From positions 1 through 64,000 of the forward strand of contig NZ_JAHKQN010000005.1 in assembly GCF_018861125.1 (NCBI RefSeq): a stretch of 64,000 bases of DNA, given 5' to 3'. This stretch comes from Cellulophaga baltica (lineage in GTDB: Bacteria > Bacteroidota > Bacteroidia > Flavobacteriales > Flavobacteriaceae). Numbering within the stretch: position 1 is the stretch's first letter; each line of letters starts with the position of its first letter. This document shows, piece by piece, positions 32,362 through 39,690 of the stretch. Under the pieces are notes generated by a model. It was not told the origin of the DNA and did no database searches. It was given only the letters and a program-made list of their open reading frames with translations. Position numbers and translations under genes: made by a program.

Positions 32362-32955
32362 ATGAAAATCATGAAAAAAAACATCTTTACAGCAGTATTT
32401 GCATTAATTGTAGGAACTACAGCAGTATCAGCAACAGTTAACCCAATTGATGGAGACAAAAAACAAATTAAAACAAGTGAGAGTAAAGTTACTTGGAAAG
32501 CTTATAAGGTAACTGGATCACACGAAGGGTTAATTGATTTAAAAGAAGGTGCTCTTATGTTTAAAGAGGATAAATTAACTGGTGGGGATTTTGTTGTTGA
32601 TATGACTTCAATTAACACTACAGATTTAACAGGTGGCGGAAAAGAAAAATTTGAAGGCCACTTACATTCAGATGATTTTTTTGCCACAGCAAAACATGAT
32701 ACTGCAACATTAGTTTTTACAGATGTTAAATCAACAGGTAAAAACTCATATACTGTAACAGCAGATTTAACTATTAAAGGTATTACAAAACCAATTGATT
32801 TAGATGTATCCGTTTACGGTAGCAAAGCAACTGCAACTATGAAAGTTGACAGAACTAAATACGATATTAAATATGGTTCTGGTAGCTTTTTTGACGGTTT
32901 AGGAGATAAAGCTATTTATGATGAATTTGACCTTGTTGTAGACTTACAGTTCTAA
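32362..32955 (+). CDS. YceI family periplasmic protein
   Basis: This 197-residue secreted lipocalin-like protein has a signal peptide (KKNIFTAVFALIVGTTAVSA). The YceI core follows, with KVTWKAYKVTGSHEGLIDLK, FVVDMTSINTTDL and KFEGHLHSDDFF. YceI proteins bind polyisoprenoids. In Bacteroidota they often follow a MarR-type gene, as here. A second start at 32371 would give the same mature protein. The gene ends before a modest hairpin and the trp promoter. Confidence 0.92.
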   Translation: MKIMKKNIFTAVFALIVGTTAVSATVNPIDGDKKQIKTSESKVTWKAYKVTGSHEGLIDLKEGALMFKEDKLTGGDFVVDMTSINTTDLTGGGKEKFEGHLHSDDFFATAKHDTATLVFTDVKSTGKNSYTVTADLTIKGITKPIDLDVSVYGSKATATMKVDRTKYDIKYGSGSFFDGLGDKAIYDEFDLVVDLQF

Positions 32956-32977
32956 TTTAAATTAAGTTAAAAATCAC

Positions 32978-33023
32978 AAAACCTCACAAGCCTGTTAATT
33001 TGGTTCGTAAGGTTTATTTTTTT
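32978..33023 (+). terminator. Probable terminator after yceI
   Basis: AAACCT at 32979-32984 pairs with AGGTTT at 33010-33015, with partial pairing inside. TATTTTTTT follows. The stem is imperfect, but the position between yceI and the trp promoter fits. Confidence 0.45.
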
Positions 33024-33034
33024 ACGGTTTCGTT

Positions 33035-33065
33035 TTTGTAATCTTAAAAATGATTTCTATCTTTG
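33035..33065 (+). promoter_or_regulatory. trp operon promoter
   Basis: TTTG (33035-33038), a 19-base spacer and TATCTTTG (33058-33065) match the Bacteroidota consensus exactly. Transcription should begin at about 33069-33072, so the leader peptide ATG at 33071 is at or next to the first nucleotide. Confidence 0.85.
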
Positions 33066-33070
33066 ATACA

Positions 33071-33121
33071 ATGAAAAATTTAACTACAAATACTTGGTGG
33101 TGGAAAAACTTACGTCAATAA
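33071..33121 (+). CDS. trpL: trp operon leader peptide
   Basis: A 16-codon reading frame (MKNLTTNTWWWKNLRQ) has three consecutive UGG codons at 33095-33103. It lies between the trp promoter and a terminator hairpin that precedes trpE. Three Trp codons in a 16-residue peptide just upstream of trpE are the signature of translation-coupled attenuation: ribosomes pausing for charged tRNA-Trp decide which hairpin forms. The start codon is almost at the predicted 5' end of the RNA, so it would be translated as a nearly leaderless message. It has no Shine-Dalgarno. Confidence 0.88.
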   Translation: MKNLTTNTWWWKNLRQ

Positions 33122-33192
33122 CGTGAGCAAAGCATCATTGTAGTATAAACAATATAAGGCTTGTCTTCACGACAAGCCTTACTTATTTTATA
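33109..33192 (+). promoter_or_regulatory. trp attenuator (alternative RNA pairings)
   Basis: Hand folding finds three competing pairings. Arm 1, 33109-33115 (CTTACGT), pairs with arm 2, 33121-33127 (ACGTGAG). Alternatively 33125-33133 pairs with 33159-33165 with two bulges, stacked on ATTGT (33137-33141) with ACAAT (33149-33153); this is the antiterminator. The terminator stem is 33156-33165 against 33171-33180. A ribosome stalled on the UGG codons covers arm 1, frees arm 2 and favours the antiterminator. One reaching the stop at 33119-33121 covers arm 2 and favours termination. Pairing energies were not computed. Confidence 0.72.
33156..33192 (+). terminator. Intrinsic terminator of the trp leader
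   Basis: A perfect 10-bp stem AAGGCTTGTC/GACAAGCCTT closes a TTCAC loop. The following run is only moderately U-rich (ACTTATTTTAT). It ends 26 bases before trpE, where a leader terminator is expected. Confidence 0.85.
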
Positions 33193-33205
33193 GAATTAAA
33201 GAAAA

Positions 33206-34603
33206 ATGGAATATCAGCTTAAAACACATTTCAAGAAAATACTTGCAGACACCGTTACACCTGTAAGTGTATACTTGAAAATTCGTGACCGTTTCCCTAA
33301 TAGTATATTACTTGAGGGTAGTGATTATCATGCAAATGACAATAGCTTCTCTTATATATGTTGCAATCCAATAGCATCTATAAAAGTTGAAAACGAAATT
33401 ATTACGCAACAATTCCCTGACTGTACTACTGAAGAAATTCAGATAGATGCTTCTACAGATGTTGTTAATATAATTGAAGATTTTAGCAGACGATTTAAAG
33501 CTGACGACAATGGTTTTAAATTTATCGACAATGGTTTGTTTGGCTATATGGCTTATGATGCCGTTAGGTATTATGAAGATGTTGAGCTTACTAAAAAAGA
33601 TAACTCCATTGCTATTCCTGATATTTATTACGCAGTATACAAAAACATTATAGCTATTAATCATTTTAAAAATGAAGCTTATATTTTTTCTAACTGCTAT
33701 AATTCTGAAAGTAATGTTTCTGAAATAGAACAAATACTACAGGTTAAAAACTTCGCGTCTTACAACTTTACTTTAGATGGTGAGGTTTCTTCTAACTTAG
33801 AAGATGATGAATTTAAAGAGCAAGTAGAATTAGCTAAAAAACACTGCCAACGTGGTGATGTTTTTCAACTAGTACTCTCCCGTAGATTTTCACAAGGTTT
33901 TAAAGGTGATGAATTTAATGTTTATAGAGCATTACGTTCTATAAACCCTTCACCCTATCTTTTCTATTTTGATTATGGTGATTTTAAAATATTTGGTAGT
34001 TCACCTGAAGCTCAATTAATTGTTCAAGAAGGTAAAGCTGAAATTCACCCAATCGCAGGTACTTTTAAACGTACTGGTAATGATGAAAAAGATGCCATTT
34101 TAGCCAAAGAATTAACTGAAGACGAAAAAGAAAATAGCGAACATGTTATGTTGGTTGATCTTGCTCGTAACGATCTAAGTAGAAATGGTAATATGGTAGA
34201 AGTTGCAAATTACCGTGAAGTACAATTCTTTTCCCATGTTATTCACTTAGTTTCAAAAGTTACTGGTATTAAAAAAGACAATATACCTACAATGAAAGTT
34301 GTGGCAGATACTTTTCCTGCGGGCACATTAAGTGGCGCACCCAAACACATGGCGATGCAACTTATTGAAAAATATGAAAAAACAAGTCGTGGGTATTATG
34401 GTGGCGCAATAGGTTTTATGGATTTTAACGGAAACTTTAATCACGCAATTATGATTAGAACTTTTTTAAGTAAAAACCACCAATTACATTACCAAGCTGG
34501 TGCTGGCCTTGTTGCTGCATCAAACCAAGAAGATGAATTACAAGAAACATATAATAAACTTGGCGCTTTAACTAAAGCTCTTCAAATAGCTGAGACCATA
34601 TAA
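33206..34603 (+). CDS. trpE: Anthranilate synthase component I
   Basis: This 465-residue chorismate-using subunit makes anthranilate together with TrpG. The C-terminal chorismate-binding domain is intact, with HPIAGTFKRTGNDEKDA, LVDLARNDLSRNG, GTLSGAPKHMAMQLIE and YYGGAIGFMDFNGN. The N-terminal regulatory domain has LLEGSDYH at the place where feedback-sensitive enzymes carry LLES, a motif contacting tryptophan; this may matter for inhibition. It is the first structural gene after the attenuator and is separated from trpG by one base. Confidence 0.96.
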   Translation: MEYQLKTHFKKILADTVTPVSVYLKIRDRFPNSILLEGSDYHANDNSFSYICCNPIASIKVENEIITQQFPDCTTEEIQIDASTDVVNIIEDFSRRFKADDNGFKFIDNGLFGYMAYDAVRYYEDVELTKKDNSIAIPDIYYAVYKNIIAINHFKNEAYIFSNCYNSESNVSEIEQILQVKNFASYNFTLDGEVSSNLEDDEFKEQVELAKKHCQRGDVFQLVLSRRFSQGFKGDEFNVYRALRSINPSPYLFYFDYGDFKIFGSSPEAQLIVQEGKAEIHPIAGTFKRTGNDEKDAILAKELTEDEKENSEHVMLVDLARNDLSRNGNMVEVANYREVQFFSHVIHLVSKVTGIKKDNIPTMKVVADTFPAGTLSGAPKHMAMQLIEKYEKTSRGYYGGAIGFMDFNGNFNHAIMIRTFLSKNHQLHYQAGAGLVAASNQEDELQETYNKLGALTKALQIAETI

Positions 34604-34604
34604 A

Positions 34605-35168
34605 ATGAAAAAGATATTAGTCATAGACAACTACGATAGTTTCACATATAATTTAGTTCACTATTTAGAGGATTTAGATTGTGAAGTTTTCGTTAAACGA
34701 AACGATCAGCTAGCGATTGAAGAAATTGATGAATTTGATAACATAGTGCTTTCTCCAGGACCTGGAATACCTGATGAAGCTGGTTTACTAAAAGAAATCA
34801 TCAAGCAATATGCTACTACTAAAAAAATATTTGGTGTTTGCCTTGGTCAACAAGCCATTGCTGAAGTTTTTGGAGGCAAGCTTGTAAATTTAGACAAAGT
34901 ATACCACGGTATCTCTACTGAAATTGACATCGTAGGTGATGATCCTCTTTTTAAAGGTTTATCAAGAAAAGTTCAAGTAGGCCGTTACCACTCTTGGGTT
35001 GTGCATTCTAAATTACCTGAGTTGCTTGAAGCCACTTCTTTTGACGAAAACGGACAAATAATGTCAATTCGCCATAAAATATACAACATTAGTGCTGTTC
35101 AATTTCATCCAGAATCTGTACTTACTCCAAATGGTAAAAAGATGTTAGAAAACTGGGTAAACAGCTAA
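34605..35168 (+). CDS. trpG: Anthranilate synthase component II (glutamine amidotransferase)
   Basis: This 187-residue class I glutamine amidotransferase supplies ammonia to TrpE. The nucleophile Cys lies in FGVCLGQQAIAE, and the His-Glu pair in QFHPESVLT. The start DNYDSFTYNLVHYLED is typical for TrpG/PabA. In the absence of a visible pabA in the window it could also serve folate synthesis, but its position between trpE and trpD assigns it to tryptophan. Confidence 0.95.
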   Translation: MKKILVIDNYDSFTYNLVHYLEDLDCEVFVKRNDQLAIEEIDEFDNIVLSPGPGIPDEAGLLKEIIKQYATTKKIFGVCLGQQAIAEVFGGKLVNLDKVYHGISTEIDIVGDDPLFKGLSRKVQVGRYHSWVVHSKLPELLEATSFDENGQIMSIRHKIYNISAVQFHPESVLTPNGKKMLENWVNS

Positions 35169-35220
35169 AAAACATCAGTATAAAGAATAAATATATTCTG
35201 AATACTAAATAATATTCAAA

Positions 35221-36216
35221 ATGAAAGACACATTAAATAGACTTATAAATCACGAGGTACTTACTAAAGAAGATGCCAGACAAATTTTAGTAAACATTGC
35301 TAAAGGTGATTATAACACAAGCCAAATAGCCGCTTTTTTAACGGTTTATATGATGCGTAGCGTCACTATTGAAGAACTTGAAGGTTTTCGCGATGCGTTA
35401 TTAGATTTATGTTTGGCAGTAGACTTATCTGCTTACAACCCTATAGATTTATGTGGTACAGGTGGTGATGGCAAAGACACTTTTAACATCTCTACACTTT
35501 CTTCTTTTGTTACCGCAGGTGCTGGAATAAAAGTAACCAAACATGGTAATTACGGGGTATCATCTAAATGTGGTAGTAGCAACGTAATGGAATTTTTAGG
35601 TATTAAGTTTAGTAGCGATGCTAGCTTTCTTGAAAAATCAATTGATAAAGCTGGCATTTGTGTATTACATGCACCTCTTTTTCACCCTGCAATGAAAAAT
35701 GTTGCCCCTATTCGAAGAGAATTGGCGGTAAAAACATTTTTTAATATGTTAGGACCAATGGTAAATCCAGCTTTTCCAAAAAATCAAATGGTTGGTGTTT
35801 TTAATTTAGAATTAGCCAGAATGTACGGCTATCTATACCAAAATACAGATAAGAACTTTACTGTTTTACATGCTTTAGATGGCTATGATGAAATATCATT
35901 AACTGGAAATACAAAAACTATTTCTAATCATACAGAAAGCATGCTTAAACCATCAGATTTTGGTGTGAAAGCTGTTACAATGAAACAAATTGAGGGTGGC
36001 GATAGTATTGAAGAATCTGCTAAAATCTTCTTAGATATATTAAATGGTAAAGGTACTGAAGCACAAAACAATGTAGTTTGTGCCAATGCAGGAATTGCTA
36101 TTGCTACAGTTCAAAATTTAACACCACTTGAGGGTTTTGAAAAAGCAAAAGAATCTCTTTTAAGTGGAAATGGATTAAATGCTCTTAAAAAATTACAAGC
36201 ACTAAGCGCAATATAG
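35221..36216 (+). CDS. trpD: Anthranilate phosphoribosyltransferase
   Basis: This 331-residue enzyme transfers phosphoribosyl from PRPP to anthranilate. The PRPP/Mg-binding motif CGTGGDGKDTFNIST is near residue 78. KHGNYGVSSKCGSSNVME and the NMLGPMVNPA segment follow. It lies 52 bases after trpG and 7 bases before trpC. Confidence 0.96.
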   Translation: MKDTLNRLINHEVLTKEDARQILVNIAKGDYNTSQIAAFLTVYMMRSVTIEELEGFRDALLDLCLAVDLSAYNPIDLCGTGGDGKDTFNISTLSSFVTAGAGIKVTKHGNYGVSSKCGSSNVMEFLGIKFSSDASFLEKSIDKAGICVLHAPLFHPAMKNVAPIRRELAVKTFFNMLGPMVNPAFPKNQMVGVFNLELARMYGYLYQNTDKNFTVLHALDGYDEISLTGNTKTISNHTESMLKPSDFGVKAVTMKQIEGGDSIEESAKIFLDILNGKGTEAQNNVVCANAGIAIATVQNLTPLEGFEKAKESLLSGNGLNALKKLQALSAI

Positions 36217-36223
36217 TTTACCA

Positions 36224-37012
36224 ATGAACATATTAGATAAAATAGTAACCGATAAACGTAAAGAAGTAGCAATTAGAAAATCGCTAATTCCTGTTTCACA
36301 ATTAGAGCAATCTATCTTGTTCAACAGACCAGAAAATTCGCTTGCCAATGCTTTGAAAAATAGCGAAAGTGGAATTATTGCAGAACACAAAAGACGCTCG
36401 CCTTCAAAATCTGAAATTAACCAAAGCTTAAATGTACAAGATGTTGCTAGTGGTTATGAAAATGCAGGAGTTTGCGGAATGTCTGTTCTAACGGATGCTA
36501 AATATTTTGGTGGTTCTTTAGATGATTTATTGTTAGCTAGAGCAACAACAGAATTCCCTTTACTTAGAAAAGAGTTTATTATTGATGAATATCAATTGTT
36601 AGAAGCAAAAGCTTATGGTGCTGATGTTATTTTATTAATAGCCGCTATTTTAACGAGAGAAGAAATAAAAAATCTTTCTGAATTTGCAAAAAGCCTCAAC
36701 TTAAATGTTTTACTTGAAGTGCATAATGAAGAAGAGTTACATAAGGCTATTATGCCTAGTTTAGATATGCTAGGTGTAAATAACAGAAACTTAAAAACTT
36801 TTGAGGTTAGCTTAGCTACAAGTAAAGCACTATCAACTATTATCCCTGATGATTTTGTAAAAGTCTCTGAAAGTGGTATCAGTTCAATTGAAGCTATTAC
36901 CGATTTAAAAAATTATGGATATGAAGGTTTTCTAATAGGTGAGAATTTTATGAAAACTGATAATCCTGGCGCTAATGCGAAAGTATTTATTAATCAATTA
37001 GCAACAAATTAA
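36224..37012 (+). CDS. trpC: Indole-3-glycerol phosphate synthase
   Basis: This 262-residue TIM-barrel enzyme closes the indole ring. Catalytic and binding segments include IIAEHKRRSPSKSEI (with the active-site Lys), LLRKEFIIDEYQL, LLEVHNEEEL, LGVNNRNLKTFEV and VSESGISS. It is a free-standing enzyme, not fused to TrpF as in E. coli. Confidence 0.96.
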   Translation: MNILDKIVTDKRKEVAIRKSLIPVSQLEQSILFNRPENSLANALKNSESGIIAEHKRRSPSKSEINQSLNVQDVASGYENAGVCGMSVLTDAKYFGGSLDDLLLARATTEFPLLRKEFIIDEYQLLEAKAYGADVILLIAAILTREEIKNLSEFAKSLNLNVLLEVHNEEELHKAIMPSLDMLGVNNRNLKTFEVSLATSKALSTIIPDDFVKVSESGISSIEAITDLKNYGYEGFLIGENFMKTDNPGANAKVFINQLATN

Positions 37013-37025
37013 AAGTATAAATATC

Positions 37026-37661
37026 ATGAAAAACAACAGCTTGAAATTGAAAATTTGTGGTATGAAATTAAATACAAATCAAGTTGCTGAATTACAACCT
37101 GATTATCTTGGCTTTATATTTTGGAAAAACTCTAAACGGAATTTTACGGGTGCAATTGAAGAAATTTCTGATTCAATTAAAAAGATTGGTGTCTTTGTAA
37201 ATGCATCAATTCAAGAAGTAAAAGAAAAAATAAATACATACAACCTTCAAGCGGTTCAATTACATGGTAAGGAATCTGTTGAGTTTTGCAAAGAACTTAA
37301 AGAAGAATTGCCTTCAATAGAAATAATTAAAGTATTCTCTATTAAAGACGAATTTGATTTTTGCGTCTTAGAACCTTTTGAAACGGTAGCCGATTATTTT
37401 TTATTCGATACTAAAGGAAAGCTTCCTGGGGGAAATGGTTACACCTTTAATTGGGATGTTTTAAAACAATACCCATCAACAAAACCTTTCTTTTTAAGTG
37501 GAGGAATCGGGCTTGAAGAAGTAGAACAACTCTATGCTTTTTTAAAAACTCCAGCATCAAAATATTGCCATGCGATTGATGTGAATAGTAAATTTGAAAT
37601 TGAACCTGGGTTAAAAAATATTGACAAATTAAAAGAATTGATTTTAACACTAAGTAATTAG
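37026..37661 (+). CDS. trpF: Phosphoribosylanthranilate isomerase
   Basis: This 211-residue TIM-barrel isomerase has the catalytic Cys in LKICGMK and the catalytic Asp in YFLFDTKGKLPGGNGYTFNW. FFLSGGIGLEE and DVNSKFEIEPGLKN form the phosphate-binding end. It sits between trpC and trpB, with about 14 and 29 base gaps. Confidence 0.96.
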   Translation: MKNNSLKLKICGMKLNTNQVAELQPDYLGFIFWKNSKRNFTGAIEEISDSIKKIGVFVNASIQEVKEKINTYNLQAVQLHGKESVEFCKELKEELPSIEIIKVFSIKDEFDFCVLEPFETVADYFLFDTKGKLPGGNGYTFNWDVLKQYPSTKPFFLSGGIGLEEVEQLYAFLKTPASKYCHAIDVNSKFEIEPGLKNIDKLKELILTLSN

Positions 37662-37690
37662 TTGAAAAATCAATATTAAAAGCATATAAA

Positions 37691-38872
37691 ATGAATTATA
37701 ACGTAAACGAGAAAGGATATTATGGCGAGTTTGGTGGTGCATACATTCCTGAAATGTTATATCCGAATGTAGAAGAACTTCGCCAAAACTATTTAAAAGT
37801 AATGGCTGAACCTGAATTCAAAAAAGAATTTGATCAGTTATTAAAAGATTATGTAGGCAGGCCTTCACCACTCTATTTGGCGAAACGATTATCAGAAAAA
37901 TATAATACAAAAGTATATTTAAAGCGTGAAGATTTAAACCATACTGGTGCTCACAAAGTAAACAATACTATAGGTCAAATTTTAATGGCCAAAAGGTTAA
38001 AAAAAACAAGAATAATTGCTGAAACTGGCGCAGGACAACATGGCGTTGCTACCGCTACTGTTTGTGCTCTTATGGGAATGAAATGTGTAGTATACATGGG
38101 TGAGATTGATATTGCCCGTCAAGCACCAAATGTTGCTCGTATGAAAATGTTAGGTGCAGAAGTTAGACCTGCATTATCAGGTAGTAAGACTTTAAAAGAT
38201 GCTACTAACGAAGCTATTCGTGATTGGATTAATAACCCTGTTGATACTCATTATATTATCGGTTCTGCTATTGGCCCACATCCTTATCCAGATATGGTGA
38301 CTAAATTTCAGTCTATCATTTCTGAGGAAATAAAATGGCAATTAAAAGAAAAAGAAGGTCGTGAAAACCCTGATTATGTAGTAGCCTGTATTGGTGGAGG
38401 TAGTAATGCTGCTGGCACATATTATCATTTTTTAGATCAAAAAGAAGTAGGAATTATTGCAGTTGAAGCAGCAGGAAAAGGAGTTGATTCTGGTGAAAGC
38501 GCTGCAACTTCAGCATTAGGACAAGAAGGCATTATTCATGGTTGTAAAACTTTATTAATGCAAACTAAAGATGGACAAATTACAGAGCCTTATTCCATTT
38601 CTGCAGGTTTAGATTATCCTGGTGTTGGCCCTTTACACGCACATTTATATAAATCTGGTCGTGGAGAATTTTATTCTGCTACTGATGATGAAGCTATGCT
38701 TGCCGGTTTAGAGTTAACTAAACTTGAAGGTATTATTCCCGCTATAGAAAGCAGTCATGCTTTAGCTATTTTTAAGCATAAAACTTTTAAACCCGATGAT
38801 GTTGTTGTTATAAGTCTTTCTGGCCGAGGTGATAAAGATTTAGATAATTACATTAAATATTTCAACCTATAG
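37691..38872 (+). CDS. trpB: Tryptophan synthase beta chain
   Basis: This 393-residue PLP enzyme condenses indole with serine. The PLP Lys is in HTGAHKVNN. GAGQHGVATATVCALMGM, the phosphate-binding GGGSNAAG and C-terminal ISLSGRGDKDL segments are all present. It resembles the standard TrpB1 form that pairs with TrpA. Confidence 0.98.
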   Translation: MNYNVNEKGYYGEFGGAYIPEMLYPNVEELRQNYLKVMAEPEFKKEFDQLLKDYVGRPSPLYLAKRLSEKYNTKVYLKREDLNHTGAHKVNNTIGQILMAKRLKKTRIIAETGAGQHGVATATVCALMGMKCVVYMGEIDIARQAPNVARMKMLGAEVRPALSGSKTLKDATNEAIRDWINNPVDTHYIIGSAIGPHPYPDMVTKFQSIISEEIKWQLKEKEGRENPDYVVACIGGGSNAAGTYYHFLDQKEVGIIAVEAAGKGVDSGESAATSALGQEGIIHGCKTLLMQTKDGQITEPYSISAGLDYPGVGPLHAHLYKSGRGEFYSATDDEAMLAGLELTKLEGIIPAIESSHALAIFKHKTFKPDDVVVISLSGRGDKDLDNYIKYFNL

Positions 38873-38928
38873 AATAGTATTTTAATAAACTTTAAATACA
38901 TATTACTAACAACCTAGTATTATCAAAA

Positions 38929-39690
38929 ATGAATAGAATTAATCAAAAAATGCAAGAGGACAAAAAACTCTTGTCTATATATTTTACCGCAGGATACCCA
39001 TCATTAAATGATACTGTAAAAATTATTCAAGATTTAGAAGCTAGTGGTATTGACATGATTGAAATAGGATTACCATTTAGTGACCCTTTAGCAGATGGAC
39101 CAACAATTCAAAATAGTTCTACTGCCGCTTTAAAAAACGGAATGACAACTAATATTCTTTTTGAACAATTGAAAGATATTAGAAAAACAGTTTCTATTCC
39201 TTTAATATTAATGGGATATTTTAACCCGATGCTGCAGTATGGCGTTGAAGCATTTTGTGCTAAATGTCAAGAAATCGGCATTGACGGTTTAATATTACCA
39301 GATTTACCTTTAGCCGTTTATCAAGATGAATACGAAGCTATCTTTAAAAAACACGATTTAAAGAATGTGTTTTTAATTACACCACAAACTAGTGATGAGC
39401 GTATCAAACAAATTGATGATGCTTCTAATGCTTTTATTTATATGGTTAGTTCTGCAAGTGTTACAGGTTCAAAATCCGGTTTTGGAAATACTCAAGAAAC
39501 TTACTTCGAACGAATTGCTAGCATGAAATTAAATAATCCTCAAATAGTTGGATTCGGAATTAATAATGCTGACACTTTTAATCAAGCTACAAAAAATGCA
39601 AAAGGTGCAATAATAGGCTCTGCCTTTATTAAGCATTTAACTAAAAATGGTGTTAATACCATATCGAAGTTTGTAAGTAAAATTAGATAG
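38929..39690 (+). CDS. trpA: Tryptophan synthase alpha chain
   Basis: This 253-residue TIM-barrel subunit cleaves indole-3-glycerol phosphate. The catalytic Glu is in DMIEIGLPFSDPLADGPTIQ, the catalytic Asp region in GIDGLILPDLPL, and the phosphate-binding loop in VGFGI followed by IIGSAF. It is the last gene of the trp operon. I saw no strong terminator before the peptidase gene 120 bases on. Confidence 0.97.
   Translation: MNRINQKMQEDKKLLSIYFTAGYPSLNDTVKIIQDLEASGIDMIEIGLPFSDPLADGPTIQNSSTAALKNGMTTNILFEQLKDIRKTVSIPLILMGYFNPMLQYGVEAFCAKCQEIGIDGLILPDLPLAVYQDEYEAIFKKHDLKNVFLITPQTSDERIKQIDDASNAFIYMVSSASVTGSKSGFGNTQETYFERIASMKLNNPQIVGFGINNADTFNQATKNAKGAIIGSAFIKHLTKNGVNTISKFVSKIR

Follow-up and report, generated by a model that had tools for sequence, protein, structure and literature searches.

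The window, the whole 64,000-nucleotide stretch of Cellulophaga baltica DNA analyzed here, contains the trp genes in the order trpE-G-D-C-F-B-A on the forward strand. This gene order, proposed in a preliminary description of the DNA, was confirmed with NCBIfam: TrpG, TrpD, TrpC, TrpB and TrpA each passed at least one curated cut-off, and TrpE and TrpF had the right best matches, with scores below the cut-offs. The consensus promoter and the 16-codon frame with three consecutive UGG codons that had been described upstream of trpE were both found, the promoter being of the Bacteroidota type. The features of the locus are as follows.

33035-33065, + strand: Bacteroidota-type promoter, with TTTG at 33035-33038, a 19-nt spacer and the -7 box TATCTTTG (TAnnTTTG) at 33058-33065
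33070, + strand: transcription start predicted from the position of the box, 1 nt upstream of the leader ATG
33071-33121, + strand: leader peptide ORF MKNLTTNTWWWKNLRQ, 16 codons, ATG at 33071 and stop codon TAA at 33119-33121, with homologous frames in close loci
33095-33103, + strand: three tandem Trp codons (TGG x3), of which bases 33096-33102 also form the outer 1:2 stem with 33133-33139
33109-33115, + strand: region 1, the 5' arm of the 1:2 hairpin (CTTACGT, spanning the Leu-Arg codons)
33121-33139, + strand: region 2, in which ACGTGAG (33121-33127) can pair with region 1, and GTGAG (33123-33127) and AAGC (33130-33133) alternatively with region 3
33155-33170, + strand: region 3, the terminator 5' arm and loop, in which GCTT (33159-33162) and TTCAC (33166-33170) can form the antiterminator with region 2
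33155-33193, + strand: predicted intrinsic terminator, a hairpin (33155-33181, 11 bp, 5-nt loop TTCAC) and T-rich tail recognized by sequence pattern and conserved pairs
33206-39690, + strand: trpE-G-D-C-F-B-A operon identified by profile matches, putatively controlled by the upstream element

The leader was compared in a close set made up of the window and the best 80 of at least 583 confirmed trpE relatives, mostly from Maribacter, Cellulophaga, Arenibacter, Zobellia, Flagellimonas and their kin; among the matches listed, the nearest named trpE loci were from Cellulophaga and Maribacter. All 81 loci carried an in-frame TGGTGGTGG leader, preceded in each by a -7 box reading TATATTTG, TATCTTTG or, in one locus, TATCTTTA. 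Since the loci are mutually related, these 81 occurrences were not counted as independent. A peptide core around N-T-WWW-x-N-L/S-R recurred in the close relatives. This recurrence, together with the precedent of Sinorhizobium meliloti peTrpL and rnTrpL described in PMC7298713, could point to a second function in trans, exerted by the peptide or by the leader RNA left after termination, a reading that we consider very unlikely. Residues 2-6 of the peptide vary widely; the Leu/Ser-Arg codons coincide with region 1 of the hairpin, and RNA pairing can therefore account for why they recur.

Tandem Trp codons were also frequent beyond the close set. The family sample comprised 70 genomes, one per genus, of which 64 had a strong trpE match (at least 480 bits); 61 upstream regions besides that of the window were read, one locus without an open frame at the expected place (L157) and one with trpE cut by a contig end (G224) having been dropped. 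Two scans combined detected a tandem-Trp leader in 60 of these 61 upstreams, including one with a TTG start (L158) and one located farther upstream (L204); L228 had none. Under a strict ATG rule the count was 58/61, compared with 0.3 expected in dinucleotide shuffles. Thus, the conserved WW or WWW peptide that the preliminary description had proposed to seek in relatives was recovered both at close range and across the family. In the class sample, which excluded a genome with trpE at a contig end (G005), a W(x)W short frame was found in 39/51 upstreams (own genome included, alternative starts allowed). The strict ATG rule gave 37/47 (own genome included) compared with 0.55 expected in dinucleotide shuffles, a test that needed at least 300 nt of upstream DNA and left out L090, L102, L107 and L128. 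Three of the 12 class misses were cut by contig ends (L090, L102 and L107, whose upstream DNA extends for only 63, 151 and 21 nt, respectively). In another three (L124, L127 and L132, from genomes G107, G073 and G139), a match to the Rfam family RF01692, considered below, lies about 1.3 kb farther upstream and presumably precedes another trp gene. The other six upstreams without a W(x)W short frame were those of L091, L092, L101, L106, L113 and L133. A loose TTTG-ATG-TGGTGG pattern matched the own genome 70 and 87 times, compared with 80 and 89 times in a reversed control, and so says nothing on further Trp leaders.

The strong hairpin described in front of trpE was present, but its 3' end lies 24 nt, not 26 nt, before the trpE ATG (33206). 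Scanning 32500-33600 for terminator-like sequences returned two sites, the hairpin at 33155-33181 read on either strand, compared with a mean of 0.3 in shuffled sequence. Its tail in the window, CTTATTTT, is an interrupted T tract rather than a pure T run. In an alignment of 50 of the 53 eligible family sequences (L212, L218 and L219 left out), nine consensus pairs of the terminator were unbroken in all 50, and four pairs were changed on both sides. Under a permissive rule, applied without a shuffle control, all 98 leader-bearing upstreams of the family and class samples likewise had a hairpin followed by a T-rich tail; in L136 the hairpin and the end of the leader frame overlap.

A lone terminator hairpin would look identical to the one found here. 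Nevertheless, it is extremely unlikely that the element is a plain terminator, or an attenuator controlled by a protein or metabolite (TRAP, riboswitch or T-box), with the Trp-rich frame incidental, as tandem-Trp frames recur at near-zero chance expectation in genomes with differing terminator sequences. In addition, the own genome (99.48% complete) gave no match to TRAP (PF02081), for which the B. subtilis control was positive. The only matches in the window at the Rfam gathering score were five tRNAs, with no riboswitch and no T-box, and T-box was also absent among 28 covariance matches up to E 10 at 33020-33240. The genome likewise gave no match to TrpR (TIGR01321), with a positive E. coli control. 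With neither a TrpR nor a TRAP match, the operon may depend on attenuation as its principal control at the level of transcription.

The leader stop codon and trpE are 84 nt apart in the window, and many close relatives have a spacing of about 70-90 nt. Spacing this short would also suit a leader or hairpin that governs trpE translation, for example by re-initiation, rather than transcription. We regard such translational control as highly improbable, given that 7 of the 81 close loci carry an extra gene between leader and trpE, with stop-to-trpE distances of 433-521 nt, and nevertheless keep both leader and terminator. The hairpin and T-rich tail common to the 98 leader-bearing upstreams of the wider samples also argue for an effect on transcription.

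Computed folding yielded each of the mutually exclusive 1:2, antiterminator and terminator pairings previously derived by hand. In the fold without a ribosome, the 1:2 hairpin formed together with the terminator. The 1:2 hairpin has two storeys, an inner stem CTTACGT:ACGTGAG (33109-33115:33121-33127) and an outer stem 33096-33102:33133-33139. In a simple footprint model, with the ribosome edge assumed 14 nt downstream of the first base of the A-site codon, a ribosome whose A site holds the second or third TGG covers region 1, and one on the first TGG leaves the inner 1:2 stem free. Masking arm 1 in the complete RNA, the check suggested in the preliminary description, left the terminator as the minimum-energy fold (-20.8). 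Since the full-length leader at equilibrium forms the terminator either way and so cannot separate the two states, folding was repeated on a partial transcript that ends before the terminator 3' arm; masking arm 1 in this shorter RNA gave the antiterminator GTGAG:TTCAC plus AAGC:GCTT (-8.5 kcal/mol for the whole partial fold). The E. coli K-12 trpL control gave the same three folds, and its terminator likewise won in the complete masked RNA. Since the two leaders behave alike at equilibrium, the order of synthesis, and not the final equilibrium, would have to decide between the pairings.

The pairing of region 2 with region 3 was next compared with shuffled sequences and with pairs drawn between genomes; one of 98 rows was dropped from this and the 1:2 test because its middle part was too short, and the region 3 segment took in 4 bases of the terminator 3' arm. 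In the family, duplex energy averaged -12.9 compared with -7.4 in shuffles, and 48/60 sequences were in the best 5%. The class mean was -13.7, compared with -9.1 in shuffles and -10.3 between genomes, with 19/37 in the best 5%. The window itself was marginal, 12 of 200 shuffles being as good (rank 0.06). Perfect complements of at least 6 were present in 22/37 own pairs of the class compared with 18.7% of cross pairs, and in 49/60 own pairs of the family compared with 60% of cross pairs. Own and cross energies in the family were -12.9 and -11.8, and own region 2 was among the best 10% of partners for own region 3 in 10/60 family and 15/37 class sequences. The cross-genome controls of the family are low in power because region 2 hardly varies; TCGTGA is at least 90% conserved in the family alignment of 50. 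The region 2 variants TCGTGAA, GAACAGC, TGTCGCAAT and GCGATGA are each complemented in their own terminator, and both sides were changed with GAACAGC (several class genomes), TGTCGCAAT (L213) and GCGATGA (L215). The compensatory changes proposed as a check on the pairing were thus present in distant genomes. The 1:2 hairpins were moderately above shuffles, with a mean z of -1.5 in the family and -1.3 in the class (window, z -2.9), and 20/60 and 13/37, respectively, were in the best 5%. RNAalifold on the 50 aligned family sequences recovered the terminator alone and not the 1:2 hairpin, arms 1 and 2 being shifted by insertions between clades.

The locus therefore combines the parts of a classical attenuator: a leader ORF with tandem regulatory codons (TGG x3), an intrinsic terminator, as judged from sequence pattern only, before the first structural gene, and exclusive 1:2, 2:3 and 3:4 pairings with compensatory changes. 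Collectively, this anatomy and the comparison of relatives make it very probable that the trp operon is controlled by a ribosome-mediated transcription attenuator, and favor the earlier proposal of control by charged tRNA-Trp through ribosome pausing. The possible pairings and their conservation are properties of the sequences analyzed; ribosome stalling, termination and the response to Trp would follow by analogy with the classical system. Under this model, RNA polymerase would start about 1 nt before the leader AUG, and a ribosome would initiate at this exposed codon with no Shine-Dalgarno sequence to guide it. When Trp-tRNA is sufficient, the ribosome would translate through the three UGG codons to the stop codon, region 2 would be sequestered in 1:2 or lie under the ribosome, and region 3 would pair with region 4, ending transcription before trpE. 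When Trp-tRNA is scarce, the ribosome would stall at the second or third UGG and cover region 1; region 2 would then be free to pair with the 5' arm and loop of the terminator while the 3' arm has yet to be synthesized, allowing read-through into trpEGDCFBA.

The element is not new in kind; it is a well-supported addition to a type of control already described in these bacteria. RF01692 (Bacteroid-trp, "Bacteroidete tryptophan peptide leader RNA") appears in Table 1 of PMC2864571, and an element conserved before the trp operon of Flavobacterium psychrophilum was explained by analogy with E. coli in 2019 (PMC6414381). These two reports answer the doubt, expressed in the preliminary description, about how far such attenuation had been described in Flavobacteriia. 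The whole RF01692 model (1-131) matched the window at 33051-33165 with 48.2 bits (E 4e-05 for 221 bases), 0.8 bits short of the gathering score of 49 bits, so that the element falls outside the family by score and is missed by a default scan. The model occupies the same place as the window element, covers the leader frame and the 1:2 region, and ends in the terminator 5' arm. In contrast to the element outlined here, its pairs lie upstream of the terminator, leaving the terminator loop, the 3' arm and the antiterminator outside, and some of them are poorly fitted by the window. Homology with the family was nevertheless evident: the leader, the CGTGA of region 2 and the terminator align with L003, L005, L019 and L020, which pass the cut-off, and likewise with the passing L141 (genome G190, 75.4 bits). 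A Trp-rich frame upstream of trp genes in Bacteroidota, a further mark of the family, is also present.

Among the matches listed, 7 of the 20 nearest named relatives passed the RF01692 cut-off and 13 failed, including L001 and L002. With the stricter Infernal filters, which lose weak matches, RF01692 was detected in 54/70 family genomes (41 over the cut-off) and in 10/159 class genomes (5 over the cut-off). Only 5 of the 39 leader-bearing class upstreams came from genomes with an RF01692 match (G000, G065, G089, G101 and G134). Searched in this way, RF01692 thus seems to overlook most of the trp leaders in the class.

The window resembles E. coli trpL in its tandem Trp codons, its 1:2, 2:3 and 3:4 pairings, the placement of Trp codons in the outer 1:2 stem and its folding, a likeness of anatomy and folding. 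E. coli trpL has a Shine-Dalgarno-bearing 5' UTR and is subject to TrpR repression, whereas the window has a predicted nearly leaderless start and no TrpR match. A start of this type has a parallel in another phylum, in S. meliloti trpL, where the 5' end of the leader RNA (rnTrpL) is described as the AUG of the leader ORF (PMC7298713); nothing in the window points to the trans functions reported for that system.

The position of the leader start was examined further. Taking the first in-frame ATG after the box as the start, the leader ATG lies 4-8 nt after the -7 box in 79 of the 81 close loci; the two exceptions are L016 (28 nt) and L035 (30 nt). The F. psychrophilum TAnnTTTG box is placed at -12 to -5 in PMC9723704, which predicts a 5' UTR of 0-4 nt for these loci and of 1 nt in the window. 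As PMC9723704 gives only 5.5% of F. psychrophilum mRNAs as leaderless, retention of this distance in 79/81 loci would suggest selection for early loading, with ribosome and polymerase in step. In the wider samples, gaps were taken from the most downstream match to a relaxed box motif. The 61 family upstreams had gaps of 4-8 nt (20), 9-12 nt (11), 14-21 nt (26) or 33 nt (1), with no box in 1 and no ATG leader in 2. Those of the 50 class upstreams besides the own genome were 4-8 nt (16), 9-13 nt (6), 14-21 nt (4) or more than 21 nt (2), with no box within 40 nt in 9 and no ATG leader in 13. A universally leaderless start in the family was rejected, gaps of 14-21 nt (predicted 5' UTR 10-17 nt, 26/61) being as common as those of 4-8 nt (20/61). 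Thus, a short predicted 5' UTR is frequent, and a leaderless one appears to be a trait of part of the family.

A broader proposal is that the trp attenuator of this clade uses a leaderless leader gene (AUG at most 4 nt from the 5' end), with ribosomes loading independently of a Shine-Dalgarno sequence once the 5' end leaves the polymerase, and that such attenuators, mostly beyond the Rfam model, are common in the whole class. We advance it tentatively, giving it slightly less than an even chance. Among the titles and abstract openings listed from the open-licence literature, none concerned a leaderless trp leader in this phylum. What the comparison would add to the known control is a leader AUG 0-4 nt from the predicted start in 79 of the 81 close loci, and putative leaders in a class where RF01692 finds few. 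The attenuator reading places one more trp operon under known control. More widely, the leaders of the trp and his operons in these bacteria could serve as natural codon-specific reporters for transcription-translation coupling in Bacteroidota. The same leaders could be used to ask whether nearly leaderless, Shine-Dalgarno-free messages load ribosomes early enough to control termination.

A His-rich short frame was found upstream of hisG in 32 of the 33 family genomes with a hisG match (41 searched, own included; no shuffle control). In the own genome, the His leader peptide MRNQTTHHHHFYTCFQAR (L115:742-798) precedes hisG. The ATG of this leader lies 7 nt downstream of a relaxed box, TACTTTTA, and a terminator-like hairpin was identified by eye before the gene; the architecture is that of the trp leader. 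Upstream of ilvD in the own genome, no clear attenuator adjoined the gene. The reverse strand of L116 contains a short frame, MRNYILNKVIIIVSSKR, whose stop codon lies 356 nt before the ilvD match. A strong hairpin and a T run come after this frame, which could be an Ile/Val leader or merely mark where another unit ends.

The extra gene between attenuator and trpE occurs in L006, L046, L052, L061, L063, L070 and L074. Its protein in L046 is a GIY-YIG protein (PF01541), and the others look alike, the ATG frame of L006 being just 71 aa long. Next to the extra gene are short hairpin-like sequences, and it is possibly a mobile unit under trp attenuation. At the other end of the operon, an M20-family peptidase gene (PF01546, 39811-41307) follows trpA by 120 nt on the same strand, and no terminator-like site was found in the gap between them. 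In F. psychrophilum, an elastinolytic protease is reported on the trp mRNA (PMC6414381).
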